Source: a virus
Strand: one strand, 5' to 3'
Virus record (IMG/VR): IMGVR_UViG_3300005523_000025
Coordinates: 1-21,117 of that record
DNA: 21,117 nt
A program made the position numbers and the translations under genes. Positions 1-18,174 of the stretch are shown piece by piece (the first letter of the stretch is position 1; every line of letters begins with the position of its first letter). The notes under the pieces are model-generated. The model did no database searches, was not told the DNA's origin, and saw only the letters and a program-made list of their open reading frames with translations.

Positions 1-3000
1 GCGGAGCCACTTCTTTTTGACGTATGAATCTTGCGATGTCATTATCCGTCTGACTCAGTGGATCTGTGCCTTCTTGCCAAATTTTACCTTGTTTACGTAT
101 CACCACAATTTTGGCATTTGTGGCTGGTGTATTTGTAAATGTAATCACAGGATTTACACCATCTACTGTGAAATCTGCTGACACAGTGTCATCTGCTTCT
201 GGACTATCTTGTCCGTTGGCTGGATTATACTGTGAAATACTGTTTTTACGCAGTCGCTTACCACCAACAAATAATTCAAATTGGTTAACATTTGTTGGAA
301 TAAACGAGATAGTTAATTCATTATTTGATACATTTGCACCTGTGTATACTTCAGATATGAACTCATCTTTATATGGAACAGTTTGGAATCCACTTTGATC
401 ATGAACTTCAGTATCAGCAAAGTGTTGAGTTGGTACTCCTGTACCGTGTGTACCTCTTCTTAATTGTTGTAATTTATTACCGTCTTTAATCCAGTATTCA
501 ATTCTCTCACCATCTATAAACACAATACCTGGTAAACTAGCAGTAATATTTGGCTCTGTGATTCCTGTTGCGTCTTTTAGATCAATTTCTTTATCATACC
601 AGTACAATGTATTTGCAAGGAAGTATTGTCTATCATTTCCTATACGTTTATAACTTGTTCTGTTCATCATATCTTTAAATTGTCTGTATGCAAATTTTCC
701 AATAAAACTTGGTGCAGAGAAATGCATTACATCTATTTGATCATTTTGACTTACAGTTCTTGAAATTAAAACTCTCATTTGATCATTCGACACAGTGTAG
801 TCAACACTTGGTGCTAACCACTCGCCATTTAATGATACCCAAACATATTGAGCATCAACTGCCGGCTTACGTAGATAAATTACTCCATTTGTCAATTGAT
901 TGTATTGATAATAATCATCAGTGTTTACTGTAATCGATAATCTAGCAATTACATCTGCCTGTTCTCTTTCTATATCTGCTATGTCATGTTTACTAAATTG
1001 GTAAGCAGTTACTTTTGTATTTTGTGTTGGTGCAGTTGTTAAAGTTAATACACCAGCATCTGATATACTGTATTGTCCGTTGTCTATAAACACATCTAAA
1101 ATATCTCCAGCAACACCAACACCTGATTCTAGTGTTACACTTGAGTTACCAGGATTCCATCTGTATTGTGAACTTGTCATTTCAACGTCATTTAAAAATG
1201 CTCTTACATCTGACGTTCCTATACTGCCTGGAATTATTTGCCAGTTTTCAATTTCATATTCTCTAACAGTTGAAACTTTAAATTGCTTGTACCAACCACT
1301 TCTAAGCATACTGTCACCAACTTTAACAATTACATTTGTGGTCAAAGGTTTTTGTGCAAAAGGTGTTGGCGATAATTGGTATGTTGCTGTGCTTCCGTCA
1401 CCAGTGAATTCATTTTGTGTAACTTCACTAAACGATTGGCTTGCACTTTCATATACACAAATACTAATTACAGCATCAATTGCCGGAGCCGTGTTAAATC
1501 TTATTGCTACTCTGTTTGGTACAGCAAATGAACTGTCTGTTTCTAAAACTTGGAACGTTGCTCTTTGCCCATTTACTCTTACAAAAACAGATATTTTTCC
1601 TTCTGTATATTTTGCTCTTGTAACAAAATCAACAGTTGAACCATCGCCAGTAAATGTATCAACATCTAAAACAGATTCACCGTTGTTACCCATTGTAATA
1701 AAATTAATTTTGTTTCCATTTGTAGGAGCACTATTGAATATAATTTTCTTGTTTTGATAATCAACTGTGAATAAATTGCTGTTATATAATATGTTGTTCA
1801 CAGAAACAAATACTGCATCAGCACTTTGCGGATAATCTGTATAAGCAAATTCTGTTGTTGTACCATCACCTATGTAATTGTAACTGTTAATTTTACTGCC
1901 AGTATTTGAACCTCTATCATAAACTTGTATGTCTAATGTGTCTAATACTTGTCCTGGTACAAATTCTTCTGGTCCATGTGATGATGTTGGAGTTACAAAT
2001 CCGTCTCCGTCAACATTAATATCTTCAGCATTCAAACCTTGTGCTGTAGAATATGCTAAATCACCACCTTGTAAAAGTGTGTCAACTTCTTTTGGATCAG
2101 GTAAGAATGAACCATCACTTGTGGATTTTCTTATAATGATTGTATCATTACCTGTTTCAACAGCACTGATGTTTACAGTTTTAGATACTCCATCGCCAAC
2201 GATTGTCTGCATAACGGCATTTACATTCGTTTGTTGTGGTGTTCCAAAATTAGGATCATCAACTCTTACACCATTTCTATAAACATTGTATTGTACATTT
2301 GCTTCTAATGTTTTAGAAAGAGTTAAAGATAATGTACTTTGATCAAGATAGAAAACTTCATCTTCATAACTTTCATCATAAGTGTCCCACTCACCATCCA
2401 TAAATGGTTGATTGTCCCAACCTGATTTGTTTTCAAAACCTATGCTACGTACTTCAACTCCACCGTAATCTATACCTTCTATAACCTGTGCAAGTTCTTT
2501 GCCTGGCATTCCAGCAGTTGGTGAATAATATAAATTAACTCTATCTTGTGTTTGCAATACATCTTGATCAATTAGATATTCGATTGATATATTCATATTG
2601 TTTGCTGGTGGTAAAGTAAATGAAACATAACCACAATTTCTTTCATACGATTTAGTATTATCTATATCATTATTGAAAGTGTATTCACTTCTTAATTTTA
2701 ATTGATTGTTTACTTTTACTTTGACAGTTGTTGTACGCAAGTCCATCGGCCACTTTAATTTAAATTTGAGTTGACTTGCATTTCCAGTGAACGTTTCAGT
2801 TCTTGTTAAATTAGCAAGTAAAAGGTCACCAGTTGTTCTATCAAATTTTACGCCAAGGTGTGTTGATCTTGCAAAACTATCACCTAACACAGCACTTGCT
2901 TTTGCTACTGTGCCTGTAGTTGAACCAACTATATTAATTGTAGGAGTAGAAATATATCCGCTACCTTTTTGGGTAACATTTATTCTACTTATTTTTCCAT

Positions 3001-6000
3001 TTTTTACATACGCAACTGCTTTGGCTCCTGTTCCGCCTCCGCCATTTATTTCTATTTGCGGTGCGTTTTTATATCCCGTACCTGCTTCGCCTATATTAAT
3101 TGCAGTTATTTGAAAACCAATATTATCTTTCCAATGCTTATCAGGGAACGTGTTAATATTATCGGCATTTACTAATGCACTGTTTTCTATTCTTATATTA
3201 GAAGGTGTAATAACTCCATTTACATATCTTGGAGGATAATCAAAATCTGTTAGAGTTGTATTTGTAGGTTCAATTTTTTCATATGAACTTACATATTCTC
3301 TAATTTTTGATTTAAATGGTTTAATTTCTTTAATGTAATCCTCATAATTTGATAGATTGTCATTTTTAAATGTTGCTTTTTGTTTTAAATCACCTACGTT
3401 GTGTTGTGCAGTTACAAAACTTGTTTTGAATACCCAATCATTTAAAGTGTTTTCTGATAGTGCATACCGTATACTTGCAAAGAATAATTTGTTGTATTCA
3501 ATTTTTAAGTCTTCAACAAATATATCATCACGTATTGTTTCTAAAATTATTCTTGTTTCTTCAATTGGCTGTCTATCGTATAATTGAATATCAAAACTAT
3601 TACTATCAAATCCTATGTTTTGGTTTGCATAATCATATAATTTTGTGTTAAACTGAATTGTGCCATTTTGTCTTCCAATAGTTTTGTAATTTACAGTATA
3701 GTCCACATCGGTTTGATTATCAATCTTTTCTAATAATAACCAGCCACCTGTGCCTACAGTTTCAATTTTTACTACATCACCGATATCACAATCTAACGCA
3801 TCTAGTTCATAAGTTTGCGAAACTTTTTTATCTATTGCTGTGAATATGCTGTATCCAGTATCATACCAGTCTGCATATTCCCAATATAAGTTTACATTAT
3901 AAGATTGTACTCTTGTTCTTGTCCAACCTTCAGTAGTATAAGAATATACTCCCCATTTGCCTGTTACTGTGCTATCTGCGTTTACTAATGCACTGAAGTT
4001 TCTTACTTGTAATGTGTCTGTTGTTTTGTAATTTTTACCTTGATCTCTTACCACAGCACTTGATACTGATCCGTTTATATCCAATGATAGTTCAATTACT
4101 GCACCTGTACCAGTTGTTGAATTAATTGTAACTGTAGGTTTGTAAGCATAACCTTTACCTGCATCAGAAACAAATACACTTTTTATTTTGCCGTCTTCGA
4201 TTGTAGGTACAAGTGTTGCTGTTTTAACTGTGCCTACACCTACAAATTGTAAATCTTTTTCTGTGTCCACCACAGTGTCATACAAGCCTGTTGCAGTTGT
4301 AGGTGCCGGATCCGATTTAATTAGTTTAGCAAGATTTATTTCATCTACTATTAAATTTTTAATTAAAACACTATTGATTCTTTCAATTGCTTGTTTTAAT
4401 GCTTCTGCTTTATTTTTGAACCAACTTTGTCTTGGTTGCATTAATGTTCCGTATTTTAATTTTTCACTTAAATCAGGATCTGGAACTTGATTCTCCAATG
4501 CGTCATATCCAACTAAACTGTTAAACCAAACTGTTTCTATATCTTTTGGAATGTAACTAGATGCAAGATTTTCAGTTATAATTGCATATTCATTGTGAAT
4601 GTTATTTGTTGTCACAGTATTGAACAATCTAAAGTTTAACACAGTGTCAGTATCTGTGATTAATCCGCCACAGTTTACAATAGCAAATTTATTTTTTCCA
4701 AATATAGTTACGTATTTGTAACCTTGTGATCTTGGATCTTTTATCAATTTCATTACGCCATTAGCAGATAAACTTCTTCCTTCAATTTGAGGAATAGTAG
4801 TTGGGCCTTTTACCCAATAATAATAAACGTTTGTGAACGTGCCTGCTATAGAATCGTATTTTCTTTTTAAGACAAAATCGTTTACATTAGATACAGAACC
4901 AGTAACACCTAATGCTAAACCTTCAGCACTTGCACTCAAAGTATTCCATTGAGTTGGTGTATATTTCGATTCTGTCCATTCATGCACATCTATTGATGCA
5001 CCTGGAAACAATTTATTCCAATAAGAGTTATTGAAAATAATATTACTTTGATATGGATAGTAATATTGTGCTGTGCTTAAATCCCACCATAGTCTACCCA
5101 ACTGTGTTTCATCCCAATGATTTGTGTCATCTCTTTTTGAAGAACCTGCTTGATTATAAGTTGCTGGATCGTATTTTGTTTTGTAATAAATTTCTTCTTC
5201 CGCTGGTCCTGGAATTTTTCCAAATATTGGATCAATGTAATCTAAATTTGCAAGGACCTCTTTTGTTTTTCTATCGTATAAAAAGATTCCTTTGATTTTA
5301 GATAAATCAGGTTGTTCAATACCACCCGTTGTTTCATGTATGCTAGTCCAATTTTTAGCGTCTTGTGATCTACGGAAATCTATTGTTGTGCCTATTTCTG
5401 CATTTGTTAATTGTAAATTAGGCATTCCAACATAAACATGATTTACATTGACTAATAAATTAGAACCAAATTGCTGTATACTTGTATCTGCATAAGTGAA
5501 TTTTTCTGAATATAATAATGTGTTATCAAATTTTTCATAAATGTGAATTGTACCTGTGTCTTGAACTACTTTCGTGAACGAGGTCATTTGATTGTCAAAA
5601 TTTGTTGTACCGTTATCAAATGATGTTTGGATAGTCATGTCACCTTTTAAACTTGTGACAGCAAGAATATCTCCACTGAAAGATAAAGCATACCCAAAGT
5701 TTTCACTTACTTCTTTAGCAGGACTTGTTAAAGTTTGTGTGAGAGCATACAAACCTGTATCATCTGTTGCTTTTTTGTAAACATAAACGGCACCCATATC
5801 TATATCAGTGAAATCTTTTAGAGGAGATCCAATAGCAATTAATTGACCATCACCACTGATACTGATATCAGCACCAAAATTAATTGTAGGTCCTGAATCA
5901 TCTGGTGCATTTATTGTTTGCTTGTATGTGTAATGATTGTCATGCAATCTGTATACAATTATTTTTTGACTGTCATTTGAGTACAATACATTGGCAATAA

Positions 6001-9000
6001 TATTATTTCCATTTGTGTCAATGTCAAATCTATTTCCAAACTGAACCATGTTGTTTTGATCTAGAGTGCTGTCATTTTCCAATTCAATTCCTGAATCATT
6101 TGGAATGTAACCTAAGAAGTCAGTATGAGTATTTTGCAATTCCCAGTTTGCTGTGTTGAATGCACCAGCAATCATATTGGTTGTCGCTTTGTACAATTGA
6201 CTGTTGTAAACAACTAATTCACCTGTTTGATAAGCAACTGTATTTTCAAAAGGTCCTCTGTATTGAGGATCAATGCCTAACCACCAATTTTTTGTAGCAC
6301 TGTTTTCTATGAAATAAATTTTACCAGGTAAATTTGTTGTGTTGTCACCTTCTGCTCCTATGTAAGCAACAGTTTCATTGCCCACAGTTCTAATTTTAAT
6401 ACGTGATCCAAATCTTAATCCAGTTGTAGCATCTGGTATACTGTAACCACCGGCAAAAGTAAATTGTCCATTAGTTTCTTTTTTGTACACAAGGAAACAA
6501 CCTTGATTAGTGAAAGCACTTTGCACTCCTTCACCTACTGGAATATTGTAAACTTGTATCCAATCTTTGTTTGTGCTACTTGGTATGTTCGCAGAAACAT
6601 TGATTCCGTCCAATGTTTGTTCATCCCAATTCCAATATTCAATATCTCTTCCGAAATATTCTGTGATTGTGCCTGAAAAGTTGATAGGTGCTGTGTGTTC
6701 AAACACTAGTAAATTACCAATTACTCCAGGAATATTACTGTCTGTGAATGCTGTTTGTTCAATATTACCTAACAATCTGTTTGGCGTTCCTACAACTGTG
6801 ATTGTTCCATTGGCGCCTGCATTGGAACCTTGCACAAATGGCATACCATTGCCTGATAAATTTTTGATCCATAATCTATATTTTTGCAATCCTGTGTATT
6901 GAATTGCCGCCACTGTACCTTCTCCGCCAAAGCCTGCTGTTCCTGTGTAAGTGGTATCACATCTAACAACGTCACCAACTGTTGGTACATAGAAGTTTGC
7001 ATTGTTGTCTGGTTGAGAGTCGACATCAACATAGCCTTCCCAAACATCACTGATTGTTTTCAATCCATTTGTGTCAGCATTAGAAATATTCAATCCTGGA
7101 AAAGTGTATCTATTGTTGGATACAGAATTAAACCATACATTTACTTGGTCACCTGCCTGTTTGCCCATTGCATGATAACTTGTTTGAACATCTGTTCTTA
7201 TAAAATACTTGTTGCTTAACACACTGACTGGTGAACCATTTGCCTGCCAACTGTTTGTGCTTTGATCAATGTAATAACTCTGAGCATAAGATATCATTCC
7301 AAATTCTGCATTGTAAACCGGACTCATTGGTGAGATAGGTGTCCATGGATATTCTAATGAATTGAAAAAATGACTTACTGTTCTTGTTACATTTTGTCTA
7401 ATGATGTCATATATTACAAGGTGATTAGATGTATCTGCACCCAAGTCTGTAGACACTGCTGTTGGAAAATCAACTCTCCACCAACCTCCTAGGTGATTAT
7501 AATCTTCTGTAATAACCCTGTCATATGCACCTATTTCTAAATTGCCAAAGTTTATTGAATCTGAATTAGAAAATACTCCCTGTACATCTTTCAAATAAAT
7601 TAATGTTTTTGTTCCAACTTTGTTTACATACACCACTGTTCCTTGTGCTGTATCTGTTGTAAGCACATTACCAACTACAGGATCTTTTAATGTTAAATCT
7701 ACTTTAAGTATTTCATCAATTTTTTCTACTATTGGTACAGCATTGAAAGAGAAAAGATCACCTAGTAGTGTTGATTGATTAATATTCTGTCCAAACGGTG
7801 CTTTTGGATCCTTCATGTAATTGTTTCTGTCCTGGTTGTAATCAGATGTGAACGACAGATAATTCATGTACAATTTGTCACCAATTTTTGTGCCGTTGTA
7901 TTGATCAGCACTTGCTCTTACTAAAAGGTGATTCGTTGTTGTGCCTGGGTGAACATAATCACCTATCAAAAGGTTTGTAATTGCTGAGTTAGTTGCTTCA
8001 TTGTATAAACCTGCGGCATCAAAAGTTGTAAAGTCTACAGAAGGATCTGAACCAATTATTTGATTAGTTGCTCTCCATAATTGTTTTTTGTATTGAACAA
8101 TATTTCCTGTTGCATAATTCTGTGTTTCAACATATTGACCTTTGTATTCTGTTTTAAGATTGCTGGCATCTGGAGCACCAACTAGAATGAAATCACCCTC
8201 AGGTGAAATTTCCATTGCTTTACCAAATTTACTATTAGAACCAAATAAGTCTGTTTGCTGATAGATAGGATCAACAGTTGGTGATTGAATTATTTGTATA
8301 AGTTTTAATGTAGCACTTTCAGTTCCTCTACTGAACACATAAATTTGTCCATCATTTTCATCTGGTTGTCCTACTAATAGTATTGTGTTATTTTGGTTTG
8401 CTGATAACACTTGCCCAAAACTTATATCACCTGAATCTGTGGTTGAACTTACAGTGTCATGCTGTTTGAAAACAAATTTATTGTTTACAATTTTCCATTT
8501 ACCATCATTACTTTGATCTACCCAGAATTTTTCATCATCTTTTAATCCTTGGTCAACAATTCTTTGATTTATTTCCGCAATATCTGACACACGACTTGTA
8601 ACAAGTCTTCTAATAAATCCTACTGCTGTTGTGATAGATTGAAATCCTGTTTTAGGTTCACACACAATTGAATTTAAAGACACTGAACTACATTTTAGCA
8701 CATAATCAGATCCATTTGCATTAACTACAAAAATTTCTCCAACTGCCATTTCAGCATTGTTTAAAGTTGTAACTGTGATTCCATTAGAACCTGCAACAAC
8801 ACTTGTAATTGTTTGTGCAGTATTTGAATATCTAAATACATTCCAACTTGAATTATAATTTCCTACCCAAGCATACTGTCCGTCTTTTAATGTTGTTAAG
8901 GTTGTGCTGGTTAATAAATCATCATATGTGCCTACAGTTAAAGATATATCTATTGGATTAACTGGCCCTGCTGTTTTTATGTAAGTGTTCTGATCATATT

Positions 9001-12000
9001 TTACAGGAAAAGGAGCATGAGTATAACCATCTGGTTTTAAATAAACTTCACCAGATTGTATTCTATAAACTAGATCAGTTTCAGCACCAGCACCATCATC
9101 AGTTAGTTCGACTGGCTGTGGATTTAATCTTACTTTTGATTCATTTAATCTATATTCTATTTCGTCAAATGTATCTGATGCTCCGTATTGACCTTTTCTA
9201 ATACCCCACTCTTCGTAGAAGTCAACGCTTTCTTTGTCTGCACTTGCTAATGCGTCAAATAATTTAGATAGTGCATTAGATGTACCTTTTTCTCTAATGT
9301 ATCCTTGATAAAATTTATATTGAGCAACATCATCATTAATAATATTTCTTAAATATTCTCTTGGTTGATAACCAATCAAATGCTGTGCCATTCTCTGTTG
9401 ATCACTGTCAAAATTATCTGTGTCTAAATCATAGAAGTCTGCAAATTGACTTGCTTTGTAATCAAAGTTTGCGTACAGTGATGGTGTAGGTTTAGAATCA
9501 AGTTTTCTCCAATCTTCATCACGAAATACTGCCACCCCTTTTAATTTTTTGTTGGCAGTGTAATAAAATTGTTTGTGTTTGACAACATCGCTCATTGCGT
9601 AATCTGTATAAGGCGACCAGTTTTTAGTCTTGGCTTCGTCAAATATAAAACCAGGTATGTTGCCACTACCATCCCATTCTGTCAAATATCCTAAAACTTT
9701 GATCCTATCCTGTTTGTAACCGCTGGCAGGATCAAATATAAGATCATTGAAACTAGTTGAGTTGTCTATAACACAAACATTTTCTTGTTGTACTACTGGT
9801 ATTTTCGCAAAATAAATTCCGTTAATTGTATTTTTTAAAAGTAATTCAAATCTATTACTATCTCTTAATACCCTTATTTGATTCTTTTCTAATTTATTAC
9901 CGTCTTCTTTTAAAATTCCATATGTATAAAAATTATTAATTACGTTGTCTGTTGTGCTATTTTTAGTCTCTAATATTAATCTTTCCGCAGATGGACTCAA
10001 ACTTATAACACTTCCATTATCCCAGTTTTGTGTTGTCCAATATAAAAACTCTCTTGTGCTTAAATCCCAATTAGCAACTTTTTCTAGTGACTTGTTAAAA
10101 TCATTAAATTGGAAGCCTAAGGATTGTAAATATTTTCCATAGCCTAAAATTATATCAACAATATCCTGTAGGTCTTCATAGGTCGTGCCATAAGATATAG
10201 TGCTTATTTCTGTTGCAAAATTTTTTCTTAATTGTGCAGTTACTCCACCTTCAATTGGTAAGTCAACTAGTTTTACAAATTTACTTAAATCAAATGCACT
10301 GCCTGAAACGTGTTGTGTTTCCACAGCATAAAATTCATTTGCATATTTTACATACTGTCCTACATCATATCTTTTGTTTGATGCCCAATTAACATATGAT
10401 GCACTAACTCCACCTACAGAAATAAAAGGATCTGTTGCAGTTTTTATCGGAGCAAAATATTTTATATTAGGATCATTTTTGTCATATCCTCTTAACAAGT
10501 AACCACTTGTAGTTTTTTCTACAATTAATGCACTGTAAGTTAATACATCTATAGCAGAACTTACATTGTAAATTAATTTGTAATTTTCTTCAGGTACAAA
10601 TATGTTTGCTGTATTTGTTGGCGATTTGCTATCCAACAATAAATTAAATTTATTTTTGTTACTGAATCCTCTTATTTTAAATCCAATTTGTGCTTTTATA
10701 TTTTTAATTTTGTTTTGATAATCTTTGTAATCTGTTAAAAGATTTGTGTCAACATAATCATAAATGTAGTTGACTAAACCACTTGTAAGGACAAGAGTTG
10801 TATCTGATACTGCACTAGGAAATATTAAACTACTAGGTGAAATTCGTAAACCAGTTGAATAAACAATTTGTCCTGCATCATTGCGTGTAATTCTACTAGT
10901 GTCCCAACCTAATCCAATTAGTTTAGCAGGTTGATGTAACATATAAGATTTAAGAATAGCAAAAGGATAATCAGAACTTCTTCTCCAAGCCGTTTCAACT
11001 GGACTGTGATCTCCGAATTTGTATTTTTCTTTTGTTAAATTTAATAAAACTCCTCTTGCATATCCACTTTCAAATGGACTCTTAATAGCGCCTGTGCTTG
11101 TTACAGGTATATACGAAGTTAAATTTGTTCTTTTATATTTGTCTAGAACAACTAATTTTTTGTTAGGTTCTCTAACAATGCCTGCTTCCATATCTTTCCA
11201 TAACACAAGGTTTTCTTCTGTGTATGGTGCGGGTCCATAAGTAGTTTCCCACCATGTTGGTTTCTCAGTGTAACCAATTATTTCCCATGGGGTAATATTA
11301 GGTCTATCTGTTCCAAATGCGTATTTGTATATTCCTCTCCAATGACCTAGTAATTTTTCGCCAGTTGGTGTAACAGCATTTGAGTAATTCCAAGTTAGAC
11401 TGTTTGAATCTTGCTGATATGTATTTGCTGTGTAATCTTCATTTCCAATGAATACTGCCCAAGCATTAAAATCTTGTATCAAAGTTTTATTAATAGAATC
11501 ATGTGTAAATAAATTTTTACGATTATCTTTAGGAATAAAAGAATTGTAATCTATTAAATCTTTATCAAATGTTGTTTTAATATTATTGTAAATTCTTTTT
11601 TCTAATTCTAATATTAAATCATCTCTGTAATCACCGTATGCTTTGGTGATACTTCCGTCATGTCCTTGTATTACATCAACTGGTTCAACAAGAGTTGTGT
11701 CACTGTATTTTTGCGGAATATATTTTGGATATAATCCTAATTTTGTTGGAGTTGCTGGTATATGTGAACCGTTTGATGTATCATATTCACGTATTACTAT
11801 TTCATCATCTAGTGCAACAGTTTTTGTTACACTTACAAATCCATTTGAAAACACATAGTCTTTGCCATAACATAGTTGTATTCCATTATGATAAACATTG
11901 ATTGCTTGGTTGGATAATACATTTAAGTCAAAATTACTTGCCACAGCAAAAAATTTACTATTTAAATCTAAAACTTTATGTGTGGTTGATTTAAACGCAC

Positions 12001-14686
12001 CAATTCCTATCATATCAGTTTGGAAAAATGGTGATGAATCTGTATTATTTTTATTAATTTTTTCTAGAATTTTATCAACTGCTATCGCAACTGAACCGTC
12101 ATATCCTAAATCAGTTGCTCTTTCTATAAAGGCTCTTTTGAATCTAGAGTATGCTTCTTGACTGTAAGATATTGCTTTGAATACATGGACATCGTTTCTT
12201 AACATTGTGTACATTGCAAGACTTAATGGGCCTGAATGCTGTAAAAATTTTCTTCCATATTGCGTTGCTTCTGGAAAATCTCTTAAGTTACTTTGCCCTG
12301 GCGTTACACCACTTATTCCAGGTAATTCATTAGTAATAGATTTGACATGGTCAGTAACTTGTCCTAGTGTAAAGGATGAGATATTTTCATTTAAAGTATT
12401 TCCTTCTAAATTACTTGGAAACTCATAATGACCATTTGCATTTTTCTTTGTTGCACTTGATGATTTAATTACAACAATGTCATCAATGTTCACAGCAGTG
12501 TTAAAATTGATAAATGCAACAGAATTAATTCTGTTTATTGTGTAGTCTGTTATTTCTAATTTAATTTGATTGTTTAAAAATACCTTGACTGTTAAATCGT
12601 TTAGATCTCCGCTTTTATCATAAACATCTACAGCAAAATCATTTAATTGGTTTGCGTTAGCAACATAAAGTCTTTCTACTCTTTGATAACTTTCTGTGTT
12701 TGCTTTTTCCCAACCATTTACTAAACTGTGTGTTGTTCTATCTGTATATTTTTTTAAAAATGCTGTATCAGTTTTTACTGTTGTTTGTGAGTCATCACCA
12801 TATACAAAAGAGTCATTTACAAGATTAAAATCAAAAGATATATCTCCAATATTTTCAACATTTAGATATGATAAAGGAAATCCTAATTCTGGATCATTAG
12901 CGCCTGTTCCTGTTTTGTAACTGAAAACTTTATTTCCAACAAAACTTGAATTACTATAATTTGTAGAATTAACATACGTATTTCCAATAGTATCAAATAA
13001 TTCAAATAACGGTGCTTGGTTTACCTCAGACTTGCTTTGTGTCAGTTGCCAGGTTGTTCCATCAAACCAATAAATTTTTCCTTGATTTTTTAATCCTTGT
13101 GTTACTAATACTGTCTCGTCTTGTAAAGAAGTAGAATTTGTTATTTCAACTAAACTAATTTGTCGTGTTGTTTTATTATTTTCTGTGAAATCTAAAAATT
13201 TAACTTCGTAAATTTTATTTTTTACTAAAGGATCTGGGTCAGCAGTAAACAAAACTCTCATTCCGTTTGTTAATTCTACGCCATCAATGTAATAACCTAT
13301 TGCTCCTTCAATATCAGACATTACATCTGTTGTTACACTATCAATTAAATTTACGTTACCTTTGCTAGATGTTCCAAAATTATATAATTTTAAACCTGAT
13401 TCAAACTCTATAATAGGTCGTCTTGCTCTTAATGATTGGTCTACATTTGCAATTTGTCCATTTGCTTTTGCACTTGCTTCTATAACTGATTTGTGTATCC
13501 ATCTGTTATGTCTACTCCAAGGATTTCTATCTGGAGATGCTTTGTTTATTACAATATAATCCTTGTTCAAAGCATATGAAGTTGCTGTTCCAAAGCCTAC
13601 AGTATCAAATTGCACTGTGTCAAAAGGAACCGGACTATTTTCTGTGTATGCACTTACAACTTCTAAATCTTGAACATTAATTAATTGTATTGCAGAGCCT
13701 ACTCCTTCTACATAATATTCACCTTCTGCGTATTCCGTAGGAGTAATTGTACCTTTAAAATTAATTTTCATTCCATTAGATAATTCAGTGCCGTCTGATA
13801 AAGTGTAAGATTTTTTACCTAACACTTCATTTGCTACATCTAATTCGCTATTTTCTTCTATTGTGTAAATTTTTATTAATCCCCAAGCATTTATATCATT
13901 GTTTGCACCATAGTATAATTTGTCAGGTGCTGTGTCTGAAACTGTGAATTCAATAATTCCCTTTTCAACTTTTTGTTGACTTACACCCACATTGTATATA
14001 AAGTCGTCGCTAGAACTTCTTGCCGTCTTAATTGTGAATGGAAGACCTTGTGCTGATATATCAAACTTATATGTTTGACCTTTATATAATTTTAAAGTAG
14101 GATTTACAGTTTTTCCGTCTGGAGTAAAAATGTATGCATAATTATCTCCTTGATCGCTTTTTGTCACTGTGTAGGTACTGACAACTGATCTTTGTTGTCC
14201 CGTTACTGTAACTGTAGATGCTCCATACGGCAACCAAAAATATTCTCTGTAATTTACAAATTTGTCCCAGTTAATTTTTGGAGACCATGTGTAATATTCT
14301 TGTGCATTTAAATTAGAATGATCATCTACATCACCATTAAGGTTTTTAATTTGATTTACATAATCAATATAATCTTTGTAGAAGTTTACATTACCTAGTT
14401 CGTCAGTTTCTGTAATGCTTGGCTCAAATTGATAATTTTGTCTATCATCATTTATATCAGGCAAATACAAATCATCTGCTTTGTAAGATTTAGTGTTCTT
14501 TCTACCGTAGTATGCAGAAATTTTTTCCAACGTTCCGCTGGAAATCATTTTGTCTAATGTGCTATTTAGAAACTTTTGGTTTACTGGTGTTCTGTAATAC
14601 TTAGGTAAAAATTCACTAGACTCTCTCTTACTAGAACCTTTGTCAGTTGGAACTGGAAAATCTTTTTGATTGTTGTCGTATGCCAT
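1..14686 (-). CDS. Giant multidomain virion (baseplate/tail-periphery) protein, C-terminus beyond window
   Basis: The frame starts at the ATG at 14684-14686 and stays open to the left edge: 4895 complete codons with no in-frame stop, so the protein exceeds 4895 residues (over about 530 kDa). The ATG overlaps the gp6 stop by one base and has a GGAGG Shine-Dalgarno sequence 12 nt upstream. In order, I see: an N-terminal region with LPKYYRTPVNQKFL and WDKFVNYREYFWLPYG; a cupredoxin-like sandwich (about 167-277); a Trp-rich block with KPTWW (about 1118-1170); four CBM5/12-like modules (about 1432, 1687, 2179, 2806); seven FG-GAP-like motifs (2090-3073); G-x-G-Y blocks (3505-3569, 3863-3935); a block ending YIKEIKPFKSKIREY (about 3731-3800); and TGDGST-type beta repeats (about 3964 to the end). 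It has no signal peptide, no transmembrane segment and no long helical coiled coil, which argues against a tape-measure protein. Its place after gp6 matches T4 gp7 (1032 aa), but I cannot show homology to gp7. From memory, similar very large structural proteins occur in marine T4-like phages. The reading frame is secure; the role is inferred. Confidence 0.93.
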   Translation of the reverse strand, partial: MAYDNNQKDFPVPTDKGSSKRESSEFLPKYYRTPVNQKFLNSTLDKMISSGTLEKISAYYGRKNTKSYKADDLYLPDINDDRQNYQFEPSITETDELGNVNFYKDYIDYVNQIKNLNGDVDDHSNLNAQEYYTWSPKINWDKFVNYREYFWLPYGASTVTVTGQQRSVVSTYTVTKSDQGDNYAYIFTPDGKTVNPTLKLYKGQTYKFDISAQGLPFTIKTARSSSDDFIYNVGVSQQKVEKGIIEFTVSDTAPDKLYYGANNDINAWGLIKIYTIEENSELDVANEVLGKKSYTLSDGTELSNGMKINFKGTITPTEYAEGEYYVEGVGSAIQLINVQDLEVVSAYTENSPVPFDTVQFDTVGFGTATSYALNKDYIVINKASPDRNPWSRHNRWIHKSVIEASAKANGQIANVDQSLRARRPIIEFESGLKLYNFGTSSKGNVNLIDSVTTDVMSDIEGAIGYYIDGVELTNGMRVLFTADPDPLVKNKIYEVKFLDFTENNKTTRQISLVEITNSTSLQDETVLVTQGLKNQGKIYWFDGTTWQLTQSKSEVNQAPLFELFDTIGNTYVNSTNYSNSSFVGNKVFSYKTGTGANDPELGFPLSYLNVENIGDISFDFNLVNDSFVYGDDSQTTVKTDTAFLKKYTDRTTHSLVNGWEKANTESYQRVERLYVANANQLNDFAVDVYDKSGDLNDLTVKVFLNNQIKLEITDYTINRINSVAFINFNTAVNIDDIVVIKSSSATKKNANGHYEFPSNLEGNTLNENISSFTLGQVTDHVKSITNELPGISGVTPGQSNLRDFPEATQYGRKFLQHSGPLSLAMYTMLRNDVHVFKAISYSQEAYSRFKRAFIERATDLGYDGSVAIAVDKILEKINKNNTDSSPFFQTDMIGIGAFKSTTHKVLDLNSKFFAVASNFDLNVLSNQAINVYHNGIQLCYGKDYVFSNGFVSVTKTVALDDEIVIREYDTSNGSHIPATPTKLGLYPKYIPQKYSDTTLVEPVDVIQGHDGSITKAYGDYRDDLILELEKRIYNNIKTTFDKDLIDYNSFIPKDNRKNLFTHDSINKTLIQDFNAWAVFIGNEDYTANTYQQDSNSLTWNYSNAVTPTGEKLLGHWRGIYKYAFGTDRPNITPWEIIGYTEKPTWWETTYGPAPYTEENLVLWKDMEAGIVREPNKKLVVLDKYKRTNLTSYIPVTSTGAIKSPFESGYARGVLLNLTKEKYKFGDHSPVETAWRRSSDYPFAILKSYMLHQPAKLIGLGWDTSRITRNDAGQIVYSTGLRISPSSLIFPSAVSDTTLVLTSGLVNYIYDYVDTNLLTDYKDYQNKIKNIKAQIGFKIRGFSNKNKFNLLLDSKSPTNTANIFVPEENYKLIYNVSSAIDVLTYSALIVEKTTSGYLLRGYDKNDPNIKYFAPIKTATDPFISVGGVSASYVNWASNKRYDVGQYVKYANEFYAVETQHVSGSAFDLSKFVKLVDLPIEGGVTAQLRKNFATEISTISYGTTYEDLQDIVDIILGYGKYLQSLGFQFNDFNKSLEKVANWDLSTREFLYWTTQNWDNGSVISLSPSAERLILETKNSTTDNVINNFYTYGILKEDGNKLEKNQIRVLRDSNRFELLLKNTINGIYFAKIPVVQQENVCVIDNSTSFNDLIFDPASGYKQDRIKVLGYLTEWDGSGNIPGFIFDEAKTKNWSPYTDYAMSDVVKHKQFYYTANKKLKGVAVFRDEDWRKLDSKPTPSLYANFDYKASQFADFYDLDTDNFDSDQQRMAQHLIGYQPREYLRNIINDDVAQYKFYQGYIREKGTSNALSKLFDALASADKESVDFYEEWGIRKGQYGASDTFDEIEYRLNESKVRLNPQPVELTDDGAGAETDLVYRIQSGEVYLKPDGYTHAPFPVKYDQNTYIKTAGPVNPIDISLTVGTYDDLLTSTTLTTLKDGQYAWVGNYNSSWNVFRYSNTAQTITSVVAGSNGITVTTLNNAEMAVGEIFVVNANGSDYVLKCSSVSLNSIVCEPKTGFQSITTAVGFIRRLVTSRVSDIAEINQRIVDQGLKDDEKFWVDQSNDGKWKIVNNKFVFKQHDTVSSTTDSGDISFGQVLSANQNNTILLVGQPDENDGQIYVFSRGTESATLKLIQIIQSPTVDPIYQQTDLFGSNSKFGKAMEISPEGDFILVGAPDASNLKTEYKGQYVETQNYATGNIVQYKKQLWRATNQIIGSDPSVDFTTFDAAGLYNEATNSAITNLLIGDYVHPGTTTNHLLVRASADQYNGTKIGDKLYMNYLSFTSDYNQDRNNYMKDPKAPFGQNINQSTLLGDLFSFNAVPIVEKIDEILKVDLTLKDPVVGNVLTTDTAQGTVVYVNKVGTKTLIYLKDVQGVFSNSDSINFGNLEIGAYDRVITEDYNHLGGWWRVDFPTAVSTDLGADTSNHLVIYDIIRQNVTRTVSHFFNSLEYPWTPISPMSPVYNAEFGMISYAQSYYIDQSTNSWQANGSPVSVLSNKYFIRTDVQTSYHAMGKQAGDQVNVWFNSVSNNRYTFPGLNISNADTNGLKTISDVWEGYVDVDSQPDNNANFYVPTVGDVVRCDTTYTGTAGFGGEGTVAAIQYTGLQKYRLWIKNLSGNGMPFVQGSNAGANGTITVVGTPNRLLGNIEQTAFTDSNIPGVIGNLLVFEHTAPINFSGTITEYFGRDIEYWNWDEQTLDGINVSANIPSSTNKDWIQVYNIPVGEGVQSAFTNQGCFLVYKKETNGQFTFAGGYSIPDATTGLRFGSRIKIRTVGNETVAYIGAEGDNTTNLPGKIYFIENSATKNWWLGIDPQYRGPFENTVAYQTGELVVYNSQLYKATTNMIAGAFNTANWELQNTHTDFLGYIPNDSGIELENDSTLDQNNMVQFGNRFDIDTNGNNIIANVLYSNDSQKIIVYRLHDNHYTYKQTINAPDDSGPTINFGADISISGDGQLIAIGSPLKDFTDIDMGAVYVYKKATDDTGLYALTQTLTSPAKEVSENFGYALSFSGDILAVTSLKGDMTIQTSFDNGTTNFDNQMTSFTKVVQDTGTIHIYEKFDNTLLYSEKFTYADTSIQQFGSNLLVNVNHVYVGMPNLQLTNAEIGTTIDFRRSQDAKNWTSIHETTGGIEQPDLSKIKGIFLYDRKTKEVLANLDYIDPIFGKIPGPAEEEIYYKTKYDPATYNQAGSSKRDDTNHWDETQLGRLWWDLSTAQYYYPYQSNIIFNNSYWNKLFPGASIDVHEWTESKYTPTQWNTLSASAEGLALGVTGSVSNVNDFVLKRKYDSIAGTFTNVYYYWVKGPTTIPQIEGRSLSANGVMKLIKDPRSQGYKYVTIFGKNKFAIVNCGGLITDTDTVLNFRLFNTVTTNNIHNEYAIITENLASSYIPKDIETVWFNSLVGYDALENQVPDPDLSEKLKYGTLMQPRQSWFKNKAEALKQAIERINSVLIKNLIVDEINLAKLIKSDPAPTTATGLYDTVVDTEKDLQFVGVGTVKTATLVPTIEDGKIKSVFVSDAGKGYAYKPTVTINSTTGTGAVIELSLDINGSVSSAVVRDQGKNYKTTDTLQVRNFSALVNADSTVTGKWGVYSYTTEGWTRTRVQSYNVNLYWEYADWYDTGYSIFTAIDKKVSQTYELDALDCDIGDVVKIETVGTGGWLLLEKIDNQTDVDYTVNYKTIGRQNGTIQFNTKLYDYANQNIGFDSNSFDIQLYDRQPIEETRIILETIRDDIFVEDLKIEYNKLFFASIRYALSENTLNDWVFKTSFVTAQHNVGDLKQKATFKNDNLSNYEDYIKEIKPFKSKIREYVSSYEKIEPTNTTLTDFDYPPRYVNGVITPSNIRIENSALVNADNINTFPDKHWKDNIGFQITAINIGEAGTGYKNAPQIEINGGGGTGAKAVAYVKNGKISRINVTQKGSGYISTPTINIVGSTTGTVAKASAVLGDSFARSTHLGVKFDRTTGDLLLANLTRTETFTGNASQLKFKLKWPMDLRTTTVKVKVNNQLKLRSEYTFNNDIDNTKSYERNCGYVSFTLPPANNMNISIEYLIDQDVLQTQDRVNLYYSPTAGMPGKELAQVIEGIDYGGVEVRSIGFENKSGWDNQPFMDGEWDTYDESYEDEVFYLDQSTLSLTLSKTLEANVQYNVYRNGVRVDDPNFGTPQQTNVNAVMQTIVGDGVSKTVNISAVETGNDTIIIRKSTSDGSFLPDPKEVDTLLQGGDLAYSTAQGLNAEDINVDGDGFVTPTSSHGPEEFVPGQVLDTLDIQVYDRGSNTGSKINSYNYIGDGTTTEFAYTDYPQSADAVFVSVNNILYNSNLFTVDYQNKKIIFNSAPTNGNKINFITMGNNGESVLDVDTFTGDGSTVDFVTRAKYTEGKISVFVRVNGQRATFQVLETDSSFAVPNRVAIRFNTAPAIDAVISICVYESASQSFSEVTQNEFTGDGSTATYQLSPTPFAQKPLTTNVIVKVGDSMLRSGWYKQFKVSTVREYEIENWQIIPGSIGTSDVRAFLNDVEMTSSQYRWNPGNSSVTLESGVGVAGDILDVFIDNGQYSISDAGVLTLTTAPTQNTKVTAYQFSKHDIADIEREQADVIARLSITVNTDDYYQYNQLTNGVIYLRKPAVDAQYVWVSLNGEWLAPSVDYTVSNDQMRVLISRTVSQNDQIDVMHFSAPSFIGKFAYRQFKDMMNRTSYKRIGNDRQYFLANTLYWYDKEIDLKDATGITEPNITASLPGIVFIDGERIEYWIKDGNKLQQLRRGTHGTGVPTQHFADTEVHDQSGFQTVPYKDEFISEVYTGANVSNNELTISFIPTNVNQFELFVGGKRLRKNSISQYNPANGQDSPEADDTVSADFTVDGVNPVITFTNTPATNAKIVVIRKQGKIWQEGTDPLSQTDNDIARFIRQKEVAP
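72..2795 (-). repeat. Tandem TGDGST-type beta repeats near the visible end of the giant protein
   Basis: Repeats of about 65-115 residues start with 'F(T/I)G(D/N)G(S/T)T..F' and continue with a 'V.V.VN(G/N)' strand and an 'I.FN.AP....I.I' strand. Clear copies are at about aa 4268-4333 (YIGDGTTTEF), 4338-4415 (TFTGDGSTVDF) and 4420-4535 (EFTGDGSTATYQL). Weaker copies are at about 3964-4040 (FTGNASQLKF), at IVGDGVSKTV near 2120-2240, and in two further segments closer to the left edge (about 715-950 and 90-380). Such serial beta-sandwich repeats are common in phage tail-fibre and appendage proteins. The array continues towards the window edge, so the true copy number is unknown. Confidence 0.6.
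2882..3100 (-). repeat. G-x-G-Y beta-repeat block 2 in the giant protein (aa about 3863-3935)
   Basis: Two tandem copies are visible: GEAGTGYKNAPQIEINGGGG followed by TGAKAVAYVKNGKISRINV, then QKGSGYISTPTINIVGSTTG followed by TVAKASAV. Each copy is about 35 residues with 'G.GY..(A/T)P.I.I.G....A.A.A'. It resembles block 1, about 290 residues upstream, so the unit has been duplicated within the same protein. Confidence 0.55.
3287..3496 (-). other. Conserved block ending in the EIKPF motif in the giant protein (aa about 3731-3800)
   Basis: The segment contains NKLFFASIRYALSENTLNDW, then VFKTSFVTAQHNVGDL, and closes with YEDYIKEIKPFKSKIREY. It looks predominantly helical, unlike its beta-rich surroundings. 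I recall near-identical wording ('W.FKTSFI....NV..L.Q', 'YI.EVKPY.TKIR.Y') in virion structural proteins of marine T4-like phages, so this is probably a structural anchor. No biochemical role is known to me. Confidence 0.45.
3980..4174 (-). repeat. G-x-G-Y beta-repeat block 1 in the giant protein (aa about 3505-3569)
   Basis: The block reads DAGKGYAYKPTVTINSTTGT, then GAVIELSLDING, a short VSSAVV strand and a second DQGKNYKTTDTLQV. This is the pattern 'G.GY..(A/K)P.V.I....GTGA...' repeated twice, a short beta unit I recall from marine phage structural proteins. The function is unknown; it may be a spacer or a small beta-helix or sandwich unit. Confidence 0.5.
6137..6271 (-). other. CBM5/12-like module 4 in the giant protein (aa about 2806-2850)
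   Basis: This is the clearest of the four modules. It reads YRGPFENTVAYQTGELVVYN then SQLYKATTNM and closes with NTANWELQ. Y2809, the G-E-L-V-V-Y core, Y-K-A-T and the closing W2848 all agree with CBM5/12 spacing. It lies between the third and fourth FG motifs, so it interrupts the propeller-like array. Confidence 0.6.
8006..8150 (-). other. CBM5/12-like module 3 in the giant protein (aa about 2179-2227)
   Basis: The translation reads EYKGQYVETQNYATGNIVQY then KKQLWRATNQIIGSDPS. Y2181, Y2185, Y2191, G2194, V2197, Y2199 and W2204 keep the CBM5/12 pattern, with 'LWRAT' in place of the more common 'LYRA'. It sits just after the second FG motif of the propeller-like region, as if inserted into or hung off a blade. 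Confidence 0.55.
9494..9628 (-). other. CBM5/12-like module 2 in the giant protein (aa about 1687-1731)
   Basis: The module reads NWSPYTDYAMSDVVKHKQFY and YTANKKLKG, closing with DEDWRKL. W1690, Y1696 and the closing W1726 match the aromatic frame of CBM5/12 (chitin-binding type 3) domains. It directly follows a PGFIFDEAKTK segment. Such modules occur on phage tail proteins and chitinases; here a role in contacting host-surface glycan is inference. Confidence 0.55.
10268..10393 (-). other. CBM5/12-like module 1 in the giant protein (aa about 1432-1473)
   Basis: This short aromatic module reads NWASNKRYDVGQYVKYANEF followed by YAVETQHVSG and a terminal FVKL strand. W1434, Y1440, G1443, Y1448 and Y1453 fit the carbohydrate-binding module 5/12 spacing 'W.....Y..G..V.Y....Y.A'. 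The usual closing Trp is replaced by Phe. Binding to a glycan is inferred from family resemblance; the ligand is unknown. Confidence 0.5.
11176..11335 (-). other. Conserved Trp-rich block in the giant protein (aa about 1118-1170)
   Basis: The translation contains GHWRGIYKYAFGTDRPN, ITPWEIIGYTEKPTWWETTY, then a GPAPYTEENLVLWKDM stretch. W1134 and the W1145-W1146 pair are notable. The density of Trp, Tyr and Pro suggests a well-ordered conserved core rather than a low-complexity linker. I recall similar 'PWE.LGY..KPTWW...YG.APYT' strings in large structural proteins of marine myoviruses, but I know of no assigned function. Confidence 0.45.
13855..14188 (-). other. Cupredoxin-like beta-sandwich domain in the giant protein (aa about 167-277)
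   Basis: The translation here runs from a TYTVT strand through NPTLKLYKGQTYKFDIS, a GVSQQKVEKGIIEFTV segment, and LYYGANNDINAWGLIKIY. This matches a module I recall from marine T4-like structural proteins, where the consensus resembles 'L.RG.TY.FD...PF.I.T' followed by 'GV.N.G...G...FTV...AP..LYY.C..H..M'. The fold assignment is by pattern only. The Cys and His residues expected of a copper site near LYY are absent (GANND occupies that position), so a metal-binding or redox role is unlikely and a structural sandwich is more probable. Confidence 0.5.
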
Positions 14687-17600
14687 TAATATCCACTGCC
14701 TCCCCCACTAGAGCCTCCTGAACTAGAACTCGTAGAACCTGTTGCACTCGAACTAGAAGCAAGTGTACCACTCAAAGTAGAAGAAGTAGTGCCGGAACCT
14801 GTTGTTACTGTTCCAGTAGATTTAATTTGTGCGGCTGTAATTGCATCTATTATTTGTATGTCGGTTACTTTTGCACCGCTGATGAATATCTCATCTGCTT
14901 CAGATTTAACTTCAAATAAACTACCAAACGTTTGTGTACCTTCATTAGGTACAATTATGAACGTGCTAACATCAGGTGCTAATTGATTCATTACATAAGC
15001 AGTTAGTTCTGAAAAGTAAAATGTATCACCGAAATCCCAATTTTCAAGTGCAAAAAATTCATTTATTGCCGCTATTATTCTGCTCTTAATATCTGCATCA
15101 TTTGTCACTTCATCTGGATTTTTTACAACTTTAAATGTTGCTTGTACATCTTCATCTGCAGAACTGCCAAATAATACTTTATATTTCACTGGATGGTAAA
15201 TTAGTGTATCACTAATTGATTTAATAGGTGCCAATGCTGTGTTAAAATTATTAAACAAAGAATCACTACTTGGTAATAAAGGTTTAGTTGCAGTCACTCC
15301 AGTCAGCCATTGTCTGAAATCAATATCGTAAGTTCTAGTTAATACATATAAGTCAATAATATTTGTTACACTAGGATCTAATCTTGTGTTTCCATCAACT
15401 GTGTGTACATATTGAAATTTAATTTTATCTCTTCCTAAATGAGCAACATAATTTGTTTCATCAGTTGATGTATTTGTAATCGTGTTTACTTTTTTAAATG
15501 AATTAGTGTCTATTATGTAAACAATTGATCCATCTGTGTAATCGCCAATAGCACCCACAGAACTTTGTCGTACATAAATTTTTTCATCTGTTGCATCTAC
15601 ATAAGCATATCTCTGCGTACCATTTTGTCCATCTATTAATTTTTGAAAAACATATTTTGATGTTGCGTTAGTTGTAGGCTCAACAACATTATTAAATGCA
15701 TCAGGATTATCTACAATGCCATCTTGATCAGAATCAAAATGCGTTAATTCTAATTTTGAACTATCTATATATCCTTGTGCTGTTCTAAATTCAGTTGCTA
15801 CACTGAAATCTATATCGTTAGTAAATGCATCAACAGAATCAGGTTTAGTGTTAAATGATAACACTGAAATTTTATCTTGCACTGTTTTTCCAGTTACTAT
15901 GTTGAAGTTTCTGTCTACACTATCGTAATAAAATCTTACTTCTTTTTTGCTTTCAAACACATATCGCAATACTCTTGTTGTGATAGTATATGTTTCGCCG
16001 TTATTTGTAAAACGTAAAATCCAACTTGAATCTAATTGTTGATTTGTTGTGTCACCAGTCTTACCTGTGCTGAAATCACCAAACACATTTAAATTATTTT
16101 CATCTATTAATTGCCATGATCTTGTCGCTACATCAAATCTTAAACCAAAATTATTGTATGCAAAAGTTTGGTCAATTATTAAAGTTTTTATATCACTTGA
16201 TAATTGTTTTGCAAATTTAGGTAGTATTTGTGTTGCAATAGCACCACTTGGTACCACGTCATTAAACTGTATAGGACCTTCGCCTGTTGTTGGAGCAGTT
16301 GCACCATCGTTGAACACACTGATTACCGCAGTCCAAATAAATGTTTTAGAACCTACGTGGTCAGCCGCGCCACTCATTAATGTGCCGTCTGCCATAAAAT
16401 GTTTTCCAGCAGGTGCTTCAAATTTTACCATTGCACCTGGTTCAATGTATTTCAATTGACTTGCTGTATATGTTCCAACTTGATAATCAACAGCAGAAGC
16501 AATATCTTGCAATTTACCAGTTGAACTATTTGTATCTTTTGTAGTTTGTGTCCATGTTGGATTTAAATCTGTTAATAATATTTTTGGAAATTTTTCTAGA
16601 TAATAATTTCTAACTTGTTTGTTTGATAATTTTGGTTCTATTGTGTTAGATATTACTGCTTCAATATCAGTTTGCGTTGTAAAATCAAATGTGTCAACAG
16701 TTTCAATTTCTTCTTTGTAAATTGCACCGTCATTTCCAAATAGATTTGTGTTACTGTATTTTCCTGTTGCATCTATCAAATCAAAGTATCTTGAAATACC
16801 ACTTGCTGTTCTATTCAATGCTTTTACTTTAATGATCTCTTGATTAGTAGCCAATGGAGCAACATTGTAATCTTCAGCAGTAACCATTCTATTTTGTGTG
16901 TAGTATGTTGCTGGAGCATTTGTTTTGACATTTTCATTTGTTTCAGATGATGTTGCATTGTCAACTGTGTACTGTAAACCTAAAGTTAATGTAAGAGTTT
17001 CTAATTGATTATTTTCTGAAACATAATCTATATCTACCTGTACATTCTGCATATCCTCAGGTACAATTCTAATAGGTTGGTTAGCACTTGTTCTGTAATA
17101 AACTCTAAAATTACCTTGCGGTAGATTTCCAAATAAACCATCTGCAAATTTTAATGCTATAGAATCATTTGTTTTACTTAATACTGTGTAAATATTTTTG
17201 ATTCCTTTTGCAGTTGAATTAAAGATAACATTATTACCAATAGTAGAATCTACTTTTGTCCATTCTTCTGCTTCTAAACCATTTTCGTCTAGACTGTATA
17301 ACCAAACATCTGTATTATTAATGTTTGATGAATCTACTGACACTGATTGGTTTGCAGAAGGTGTTGTTATAGAAAAATCTCCTTGGTCTAGTACACCTTG
17401 TCTAAATTGTAAAAAGAATCCAGTGTTATTACTAGAATTGCCTTTGCCATCATCTCTATGAAGAAAACTAAAAGGATTTCCAACTTGAGGACTTTCTTCT
17501 ACAACGTTGCCGTTATTAAATGTAGTTGAAACAACTTCAAAGTCTAAATTTTGTCCATCTACAATTTTAGAAAAAGAATATACAGGAGCATCTGCACTCT

Positions 17601-18174
17601 GTGAATTAAATCTATATTGTGCAGTTGGTATTCCATCTATTGAATCTTTCTTCACTGGTTTTCCAAATTTTTCATTCTCACCTAAACCAGAATTAATTAC
17701 TTTTATAAATTGTTCGTACCAGTTATTATTACCAGAGTCATTCCAAGTAACAGTTTGTCTAGACAAATTTAAGTTGTTACTGTCAGTAATATTTTCTGTT
17801 GTAGAAACTCCTATTACTTTCATTACGCCATTAGCACATTGATTTCTAGTTACATTGTAACTGATAAGTCTTGCTAATCTTAAAACACTTTCTCTTCTAT
17901 CTGCAAGATCAATAAAATTTTCTCGTGCATTTAAATCTATTCTGAATGAAACGTTTTGTCCTAAAAATGCTATTAAATCAATTAGTGCAAGATATTCTGA
18001 AGATTCTATATAGTCATTGAAATCTTCTGGATAGTTTGTTCTAATGTACTGAACCATTGTTCTACGAATAGTATCAAAATCATAACTTTGGAATTCAGCA
18101 TTTTTATAGGATTGATAAATCCTTTTCCAATCTTCTGCAAGTAATAATCTGTTTTGTCTATCTGTGGATGCCAT
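14686..18174 (-). CDS. 6: T4 gp6-like baseplate wedge protein (baseplate J-like)
   Basis: This 1162-residue protein would dimerise around the baseplate to form the inner wedge ring that connects wedges to each other and to the hub. The N-terminus carries YPEDFNDYIESSEYLALIDL (49-68) and the RIDLNARENFIDLADRRESV string (78-97), then RLARLISYN, a strong gp6 signature in T4-like phages. NRMVTAEDYNV around residue 430 resembles the baseplate-J core. It is much longer than T4 gp6 (660 aa); the extra length lies mainly in the beta-rich middle and C-terminal half. The last 44 residues (1119-1162) are an unusual Ser/Thr/Gly tail. The ATG at 18172-18174 is preceded by AAGGAA and agrees with the family N-terminus. 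The stop overlaps the start of the giant gene (TAATG), implying translational coupling. Assignment to gp6 is firm; the role of the tail is unknown. Confidence 0.93.
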   Translation of the reverse strand: MASTDRQNRLLLAEDWKRIYQSYKNAEFQSYDFDTIRRTMVQYIRTNYPEDFNDYIESSEYLALIDLIAFLGQNVSFRIDLNARENFIDLADRRESVLRLARLISYNVTRNQCANGVMKVIGVSTTENITDSNNLNLSRQTVTWNDSGNNNWYEQFIKVINSGLGENEKFGKPVKKDSIDGIPTAQYRFNSQSADAPVYSFSKIVDGQNLDFEVVSTTFNNGNVVEESPQVGNPFSFLHRDDGKGNSSNNTGFFLQFRQGVLDQGDFSITTPSANQSVSVDSSNINNTDVWLYSLDENGLEAEEWTKVDSTIGNNVIFNSTAKGIKNIYTVLSKTNDSIALKFADGLFGNLPQGNFRVYYRTSANQPIRIVPEDMQNVQVDIDYVSENNQLETLTLTLGLQYTVDNATSSETNENVKTNAPATYYTQNRMVTAEDYNVAPLATNQEIIKVKALNRTASGISRYFDLIDATGKYSNTNLFGNDGAIYKEEIETVDTFDFTTQTDIEAVISNTIEPKLSNKQVRNYYLEKFPKILLTDLNPTWTQTTKDTNSSTGKLQDIASAVDYQVGTYTASQLKYIEPGAMVKFEAPAGKHFMADGTLMSGAADHVGSKTFIWTAVISVFNDGATAPTTGEGPIQFNDVVPSGAIATQILPKFAKQLSSDIKTLIIDQTFAYNNFGLRFDVATRSWQLIDENNLNVFGDFSTGKTGDTTNQQLDSSWILRFTNNGETYTITTRVLRYVFESKKEVRFYYDSVDRNFNIVTGKTVQDKISVLSFNTKPDSVDAFTNDIDFSVATEFRTAQGYIDSSKLELTHFDSDQDGIVDNPDAFNNVVEPTTNATSKYVFQKLIDGQNGTQRYAYVDATDEKIYVRQSSVGAIGDYTDGSIVYIIDTNSFKKVNTITNTSTDETNYVAHLGRDKIKFQYVHTVDGNTRLDPSVTNIIDLYVLTRTYDIDFRQWLTGVTATKPLLPSSDSLFNNFNTALAPIKSISDTLIYHPVKYKVLFGSSADEDVQATFKVVKNPDEVTNDADIKSRIIAAINEFFALENWDFGDTFYFSELTAYVMNQLAPDVSTFIIVPNEGTQTFGSLFEVKSEADEIFISGAKVTDIQIIDAITAAQIKSTGTVTTGSGTTSSTLSGTLASSSSATGSTSSSSGGSSGGGSGY
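14689..14820 (-). repeat. Ser/Thr/Gly low-complexity C-terminal tail of gp6
   Basis: The last 44 residues of gp6 are almost only Ser, Thr and Gly (for example ASSSSATGSTSSSSGGSSGG), ending GSGY. It looks like a disordered linker. Its final glycine codons (GGG GGA GGC) also create the ribosome-binding site of the next gene. Confidence 0.85.
14699..14703 (-). promoter_or_regulatory. Shine-Dalgarno GGAGG for the giant gene
   Basis: A perfect GGAGG lies 12 nt before the ATG at 14686, inside the Gly codons at the end of gp6. The spacing is slightly long. It supports the choice of start and suggests coupled translation through the TAATG overlap. Confidence 0.6.

Follow-up and report, generated by a model that had tools for sequence, protein, structure and literature searches.

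A giant protein encoded behind gp6 in a marine relative of Rak2-type jumbo phages, probably an enlarged baseplate wedge protein

The locus considered here raises a simple question: what is the protein encoded by a gene of almost 4,900 codons that directly follows gp6 in a phage genome? The sequence comes from IMG/VR as a virus fragment 21,117 bases long, the whole of which is referred to below as the window. A first-pass annotation had placed the gene where T4 has gp7, and had proposed that its product (here, the giant) merges wedge, appendage and receptor-contact roles in one chain.

1..14686, minus strand: giant open reading frame with 4,895 codons inside the window; ~4,897 aa by comparison with relatives, with the stop two codons past position 2

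Re-translation of the window confirms that the minus-strand frame starts at an ATG and runs from 14686 to position 2, over 4,895 codons, with zero stops. Given the base composition of the window, the probability of such an open length arising by chance is approximately 10^-183. All five remaining frames are full of stops, with 405 and 555 in the other two sense frames and 237–336 in the antisense frames. Two close relatives, whose best segments are ~87% and 89% identical to the giant, can be aligned over 4,131 and 3,633 codons, and each alignment contains just 2 gap residues. Between these relatives and the giant gene, dN/dS is 0.04–0.12 in each 500-codon block. Strong purifying selection acts along the entire gene. 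Since gaps are few and dN/dS is low in all blocks, the full length is therefore one coding frame. Re-reading of the window frame found no in-frame stop, and the first-pass judgement that the frame is not due to chance stands. Its estimate of more than 4,895 codons is also correct, but by only about two codons, because relatives (L082, L083, L085, L104 and L105) end in ...FIRQKEVAPPQ-TAA, with the stop two codons beyond the window edge. Fuller records of relatives give lengths of 4,896, 4,890, 4,895 and ~4,797 aa. One related contig, L020, has one in-frame stop (13403–13405, codon ~1134 of the giant gene), which is either a sequencing error or a real interruption.

The neighbourhood of the giant gene is a baseplate operon, with the following genes upstream:

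14686..18174, minus strand: gp6 homologue (BW2), 1,162 aa, directly upstream of the giant (phrog_10646, E 1e-301; phrog_219, E 5e-18)
18224..18664, minus strand: gp25 homologue (BW1, sheath initiator; PF04965, phrog_261/43)
18684..18986, minus strand: PAAR spike-tip protein (PF05488, E 1.5e-11)
18986..20449, minus strand: gp5-type hub/spike protein with an OB domain (phrog_13211, E 2.5e-44)

The order in the window, gp5-PAAR-gp25-gp6-giant, matches that in T4, 5-5.4(PAAR)-6-7, and the giant gene occupies the place of T4 gp7, as first proposed. The gp6 stop codon and the giant start codon share one base (...TATTAATGG...). This arrangement is conserved: gp6 lies immediately upstream of the giant in 79 of 80 related loci, mostly with a 1-base overlap, SCTP-2 being the exception. 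On the other side, a phrog_11259 gene (203 residues) follows the giant in all 23 loci open to check. In SCTP-2, a second giant gene (gp141; L109 5612–14902, 3,096 codons) precedes the giant instead of gp6, and gp6 is located ~90 kb away. The window gp6 itself ends in a long Ser/Gly/Thr-rich tail (14689–14800, TGSGTTSSTLSGTLASSSSATGSTSSSSGGSSGGGSGY).

The source is a marine relative of Rak2-type jumbo phages. The giant matches the family phrog_10938 ('virion structural protein') with an E value of 1.5e-292 over 4 stretches of the profile, and a search with the window gp6 also retrieves the Rak2-like group. By sequence, the giant is a member of this described family, and equally large relatives are already in databases. 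Named homologues include RaK2 ORF070 (3,326 aa), PA5oct gp355 (3,857), SCTP-2 gp140 (3,807) and Atu_ph07 gp180 (4,449), and ORF58 of AP-J-162, at 4,455 aa, is listed beside a 1,198-aa wedge protein (PMC11242549). The maps of Rak2-like phages begin at each phage's largest gene (PMC5259590), which would be the phrog_10938 giant. Members are homologous to the window giant over residues 1–1900 and 3100–3800, and all except that of SCTP-2 directly follow gp6. In a relative of PA5oct, a chitin-binding type-3 domain is annotated. In contrast, the window giant exceeds the named members by ~440–1,570 residues, shares mostly 20–43% identity with them in the conserved blocks, and has its own propeller and C-terminal modules. 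A megablast search of the window against phages gave no match, and phmmer/hmmsearch searches against PDB sequences returned nothing relevant; matches to ribosomal uL18 in the latter had E values of 0.03 or worse and were judged to be chance.

Virion presence is known for two members of the family, those of PA5oct and CBB. The PA5oct record marks gp355 'ESI-MS/MS' (peptides seen in virions), and CBB_236, which is listed adjoining the gp6 CBB_237, was detected by mass spectrometry through 21 peptides (PMC5259590). The coverage of CBB_236 was low (7.72%) and cannot prove an intact chain, which leaves some room for the idea that the long frame is translated and then cut into several virion proteins, in a polyprotein-like manner. 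Such processing is very improbable: no sign of cleavage was seen, and relatives show no split of the frame into separate genes, only L020 having its single in-frame stop.

P2 gpI, pyocin PA0619 and T4 gp7 are regarded as one role, BW3, which joins two copies of BW2/gp6 as (BW2)2-BW3 and usually bears receptor-binding proteins (PMC10811340; PMC10457771). The giant is encoded beside gp6/BW2 and gp25/BW1, as BW3 would be, and the P2 gene order J-I parallels gp6-giant. With T4 gp7 (phrog_964), the giant shares the position after gp6 and likely a wedge role. T4 gp7 has only 1,032 aa, which bears out the first-pass figure of a 4.7-fold difference in length, and is without a detectable sequence or Pfam-domain match to the giant. 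P2 gpI and PA0619 (PF09684, BW3) are smaller still, at ~176 aa, and are without propeller, CBM or repeat modules.

A candidate for the BW3 core was found around a strongly conserved segment of the giant, YQGxIxEKGTxNxLxKLFDxL...EEW:

9182..9454, minus strand: candidate gpI/gp7 (BW3) wedge core, residues 1745–1835 (hhalign against the gpI family, shuffle controls, conservation)

The giant was divided into 76 tiled segments, which were compared by hhalign with an alignment built from 66 members of the P2 gpI family. The core segment aligns over residues 1798–1827 (REKGTSNALSKLF...EEW) with a score of 27.5 (P 6e-4), at a probability of only 28–30%. The best other part of the giant reaches 21.6 and a reversed control 10.6, and none of 150 column shuffles attains the score of the core (best 16.6). 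Marine rows alone score 25.2 and named-phage rows alone 25.3, both beginning at gpI position 79. After correction for the 76 segments, the value is ~0.05, which is borderline. The link, in which the KGT...EW segment falls in matching register with P2 gpI, is statistically weak. Compared with T4 gp7 and with a cyanophage giant, the segment again lands on this motif, below significance. AF2 models of the core alone have a pLDDT of ~25–40 and do not confirm a fold, and structures of gp7, gpI and gp8 are absent among the matches listed in VIA comparisons.

Direct comparison with T4 gp7, which the first-pass annotation had suggested, gave no match between the T4 gp7 family and any part of the giant by hhalign, nor did the T4 gp7 Pfam domains (Gp7_helical, Gp7_5th, Gp7_6th; phrog_964) match the giant. 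A search with PF09684 (gpI) found no match in PA5oct, Atu_ph07, RaK2 or relatives, and it also missed T4. The wedge role is therefore upheld in part, through a short core segment like that of the gpI/gp7 family, and not through T4 gp7 itself. These results leave a minority but appreciable chance that the giant serves as a scaffold or belt, associated with the wedge or peripheral to it, and is not a gp7/BW3 orthologue, with BW3 encoded by another, unrecognised gene. Besides the missing T4 gp7 match and the shortness of the gpI-like one, cyanophage S-SM1 lends this idea some weight, as it has a separate 'baseplate wedge subunit', SSM1_104, two genes past its own giant, and the S-CAM22 counterpart of SSM1_104 is annotated gp7.

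The S-SM1 giant itself argues the other way. This protein, SSM1_102 (phrog_701, T4-GC969), shares with the window giant the position after gp6 and the GxGY repeats described below, and its cluster was detected in the virion (PMC3037559). It differs in being larger still (6,180 aa) and in the genes behind it, which are gp9, a wedge gene and gp8. Repeats aside, its sequence does not match the window giant significantly. T4 gp7 around residue 738 matches this post-gp6 giant with 95.6% probability, in agreement with hmmscan, whereas SSM1_104 has no match to T4 gp7. A giant encoded behind gp6 can therefore contain a gp7 core, which sets a precedent. Together with the conserved position right behind gp6 and a gpI-like segment that exceeds all controls, this favours the giant as BW3 over a scaffold lying beside it.

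Beyond the candidate core, the chain carries binding-type modules, as the first-pass annotation had described:

13835..14209, minus strand: cupredoxin-fold (YHYH-type) domain, residues ~160–284 (AF2 pLDDT ~76–89; VIA Z 8.8 against a cupredoxin domain)
12461..12688, minus strand: beta domain, residues ~667–742, like a domain of the LME-1 and P-SCSP1u portal-tail chains
10268..10372, minus strand: CBM5/12-like module 1, residues 1439–1473 (PF02839, E 6e-6; iterated HMM)
9500..9604, minus strand: CBM5/12-like module 2, residues 1695–1729 (iterated HMM)
8507..8959, minus strand: beta domain with no clear known fold, residues 1910–2060 (AF2 pLDDT 82–91 in most blocks)
5627..8422, minus strand: variable module of FG-GAP repeats and inserts, residues ~2089–3020 (PF14312, E 1.3e-11)
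8015..8116, minus strand: CBM5/12-like module 3, residues 2191–2224 (iterated HMM)
6143..6232, minus strand: CBM5/12-like module 4, residues 2819–2848 (PF02839, E 1.3e-5; iterated HMM)
4004..4186, minus strand: GxGY-repeat module 1, residues 3501–3561, common to cyanophage virion proteins
2930..3109, minus strand: GxGY-repeat module 2, residues 3860–3919, origin of a phrog_460 'head closure' match
1457..1876, minus strand: fibre-type beta repeats (GDGSTxxF...VxVNG), residues 4271–4410 (DUF2460, E 3.9e-6)

The cupredoxin-fold domain (phrog_677, E 1e-10; BFVD matches to cyanophage gp9) is a module that also forms the C-terminal part of cyanophage gp9. Its copper-ligand positions look degenerate, with no Cys, His or Met in LYYGANNDINAWGLI, and because they appear lost, a structural or binding role is more probable for this domain than a redox one. 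Similarity of the beta domain at 667–742 to the portal-tail chains is middling (VIA Z 8.3 and 8.2 over 68–70 residues). PF02839 matches to CBM5/12-like module 1 occur in 18 of 32 relatives, the best at 7.8e-11. FG-GAP-like copies begin at residues 2089, 2153 and 2936; this repeat region, which has low conservation outside near relatives, is likely to form a beta-propeller, judging from its repeats. A Foldseek search with a model of residues 1440–2080 returned nothing at E <= 0.001. Its matches to an E1 enzyme and tailspikes involve one small beta domain only, and a Milano baseplate chain at rank 41 was set aside as evidence. The phrog_460 'head closure' identity was likewise rejected, as that match is due to the GxGY repeats, which also occur in gp7-annotated and giant proteins of cyanophages.

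A single chain that combines CBM-like, FG-GAP, cupredoxin, GxGY and fibre-type modules speaks for the first-pass idea that wedge, appendage and receptor-binding roles are merged, in which case the giant would replace gp7, gp8, gp9–gp11 and the fibres. In addition, Pfam gp8 was not found in PA5oct, Atu_ph07, RaK2 or the searched relatives, although T4 and S-SM1 match, and loss or replacement of gp8 in these jumbo phages is therefore possible. However, a full merger is improbable, as relatives keep their appendages in separate genes. Fibre/collar genes lie downstream of the giant in relative L085, PA5oct gp358 is noted as a T4-like gp10, and in a 400-kb relative (contig G205) a protein with the T4 gp9/gp10 N-terminal domain (PF07880, E 6.9e-7; 52721–52834, minus strand) directly follows the giant gene, whose end is at 52846. 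On this evidence, the claim that appendages have been absorbed into the chain is not supported. The three consecutive fibre/collar-type genes of L085 (11548–13578, 13578–15764 and 15795–17264) have a similar N-terminal stretch of ~90 residues, GKNY..YGE..NENFLHLLENFA....P..GQ.WFDT, which is likely a shared anchor. Two further adjacent genes in L085 (18543–19346 and 19339–20160) are glycosyltransferase-like by eye (DTD and DAD motifs).

Since separate fibre, gp10-like and gp9/gp10-N genes persist in relatives, the giant is read as an enlarged BW3 on which separate appendages dock. It is probably the BW3 protein of a jumbo phage related to Rak2, the counterpart of T4 gp7, P2 gpI and pyocin PA0619, expanded to ~4,900 residues. 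In this model, the helical segment at ~1745–1835 would tie a pair of gp6 chains together within the (BW2)2-BW3 core, and each wedge would contain one giant chain, each virion six. The rest of the chain would reach outward as an arm or platform that fibres and pins dock onto. Through its CBM-like and propeller modules, this part may also contact glycans on the host surface; such contact would pass an attachment signal to the wedge. Residues 1–1900 and 3100–3800, which are well conserved, can be seen as a conserved frame, while 1900–3100 and the C-terminal 900 residues, with conservation poor in the former and past 3900, represent exchangeable parts. A bolder version, in which the chain has absorbed most of the peripheral baseplate, the gp8 role included, and contacts host glycans directly, is unlikely; if true, one ~540-kDa chain per wedge would couple receptor contact to sheath triggering.

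The giant is a striking protein, yet of an already known kind, as post-gp6 giants are known in Rak2-like jumbo phages and in cyanophages. Giant proteins in the wedge position are common among marine relatives of Rak2-type jumbo phages. The 'virion structural protein' family to which they belong probably represents the wedge protein gp7/BW3. Confirmation of this would transfer a family that PHROGs files under 'head and packaging' to the baseplate, and its exchangeable regions would then indicate where these phages mount their host-specific parts.
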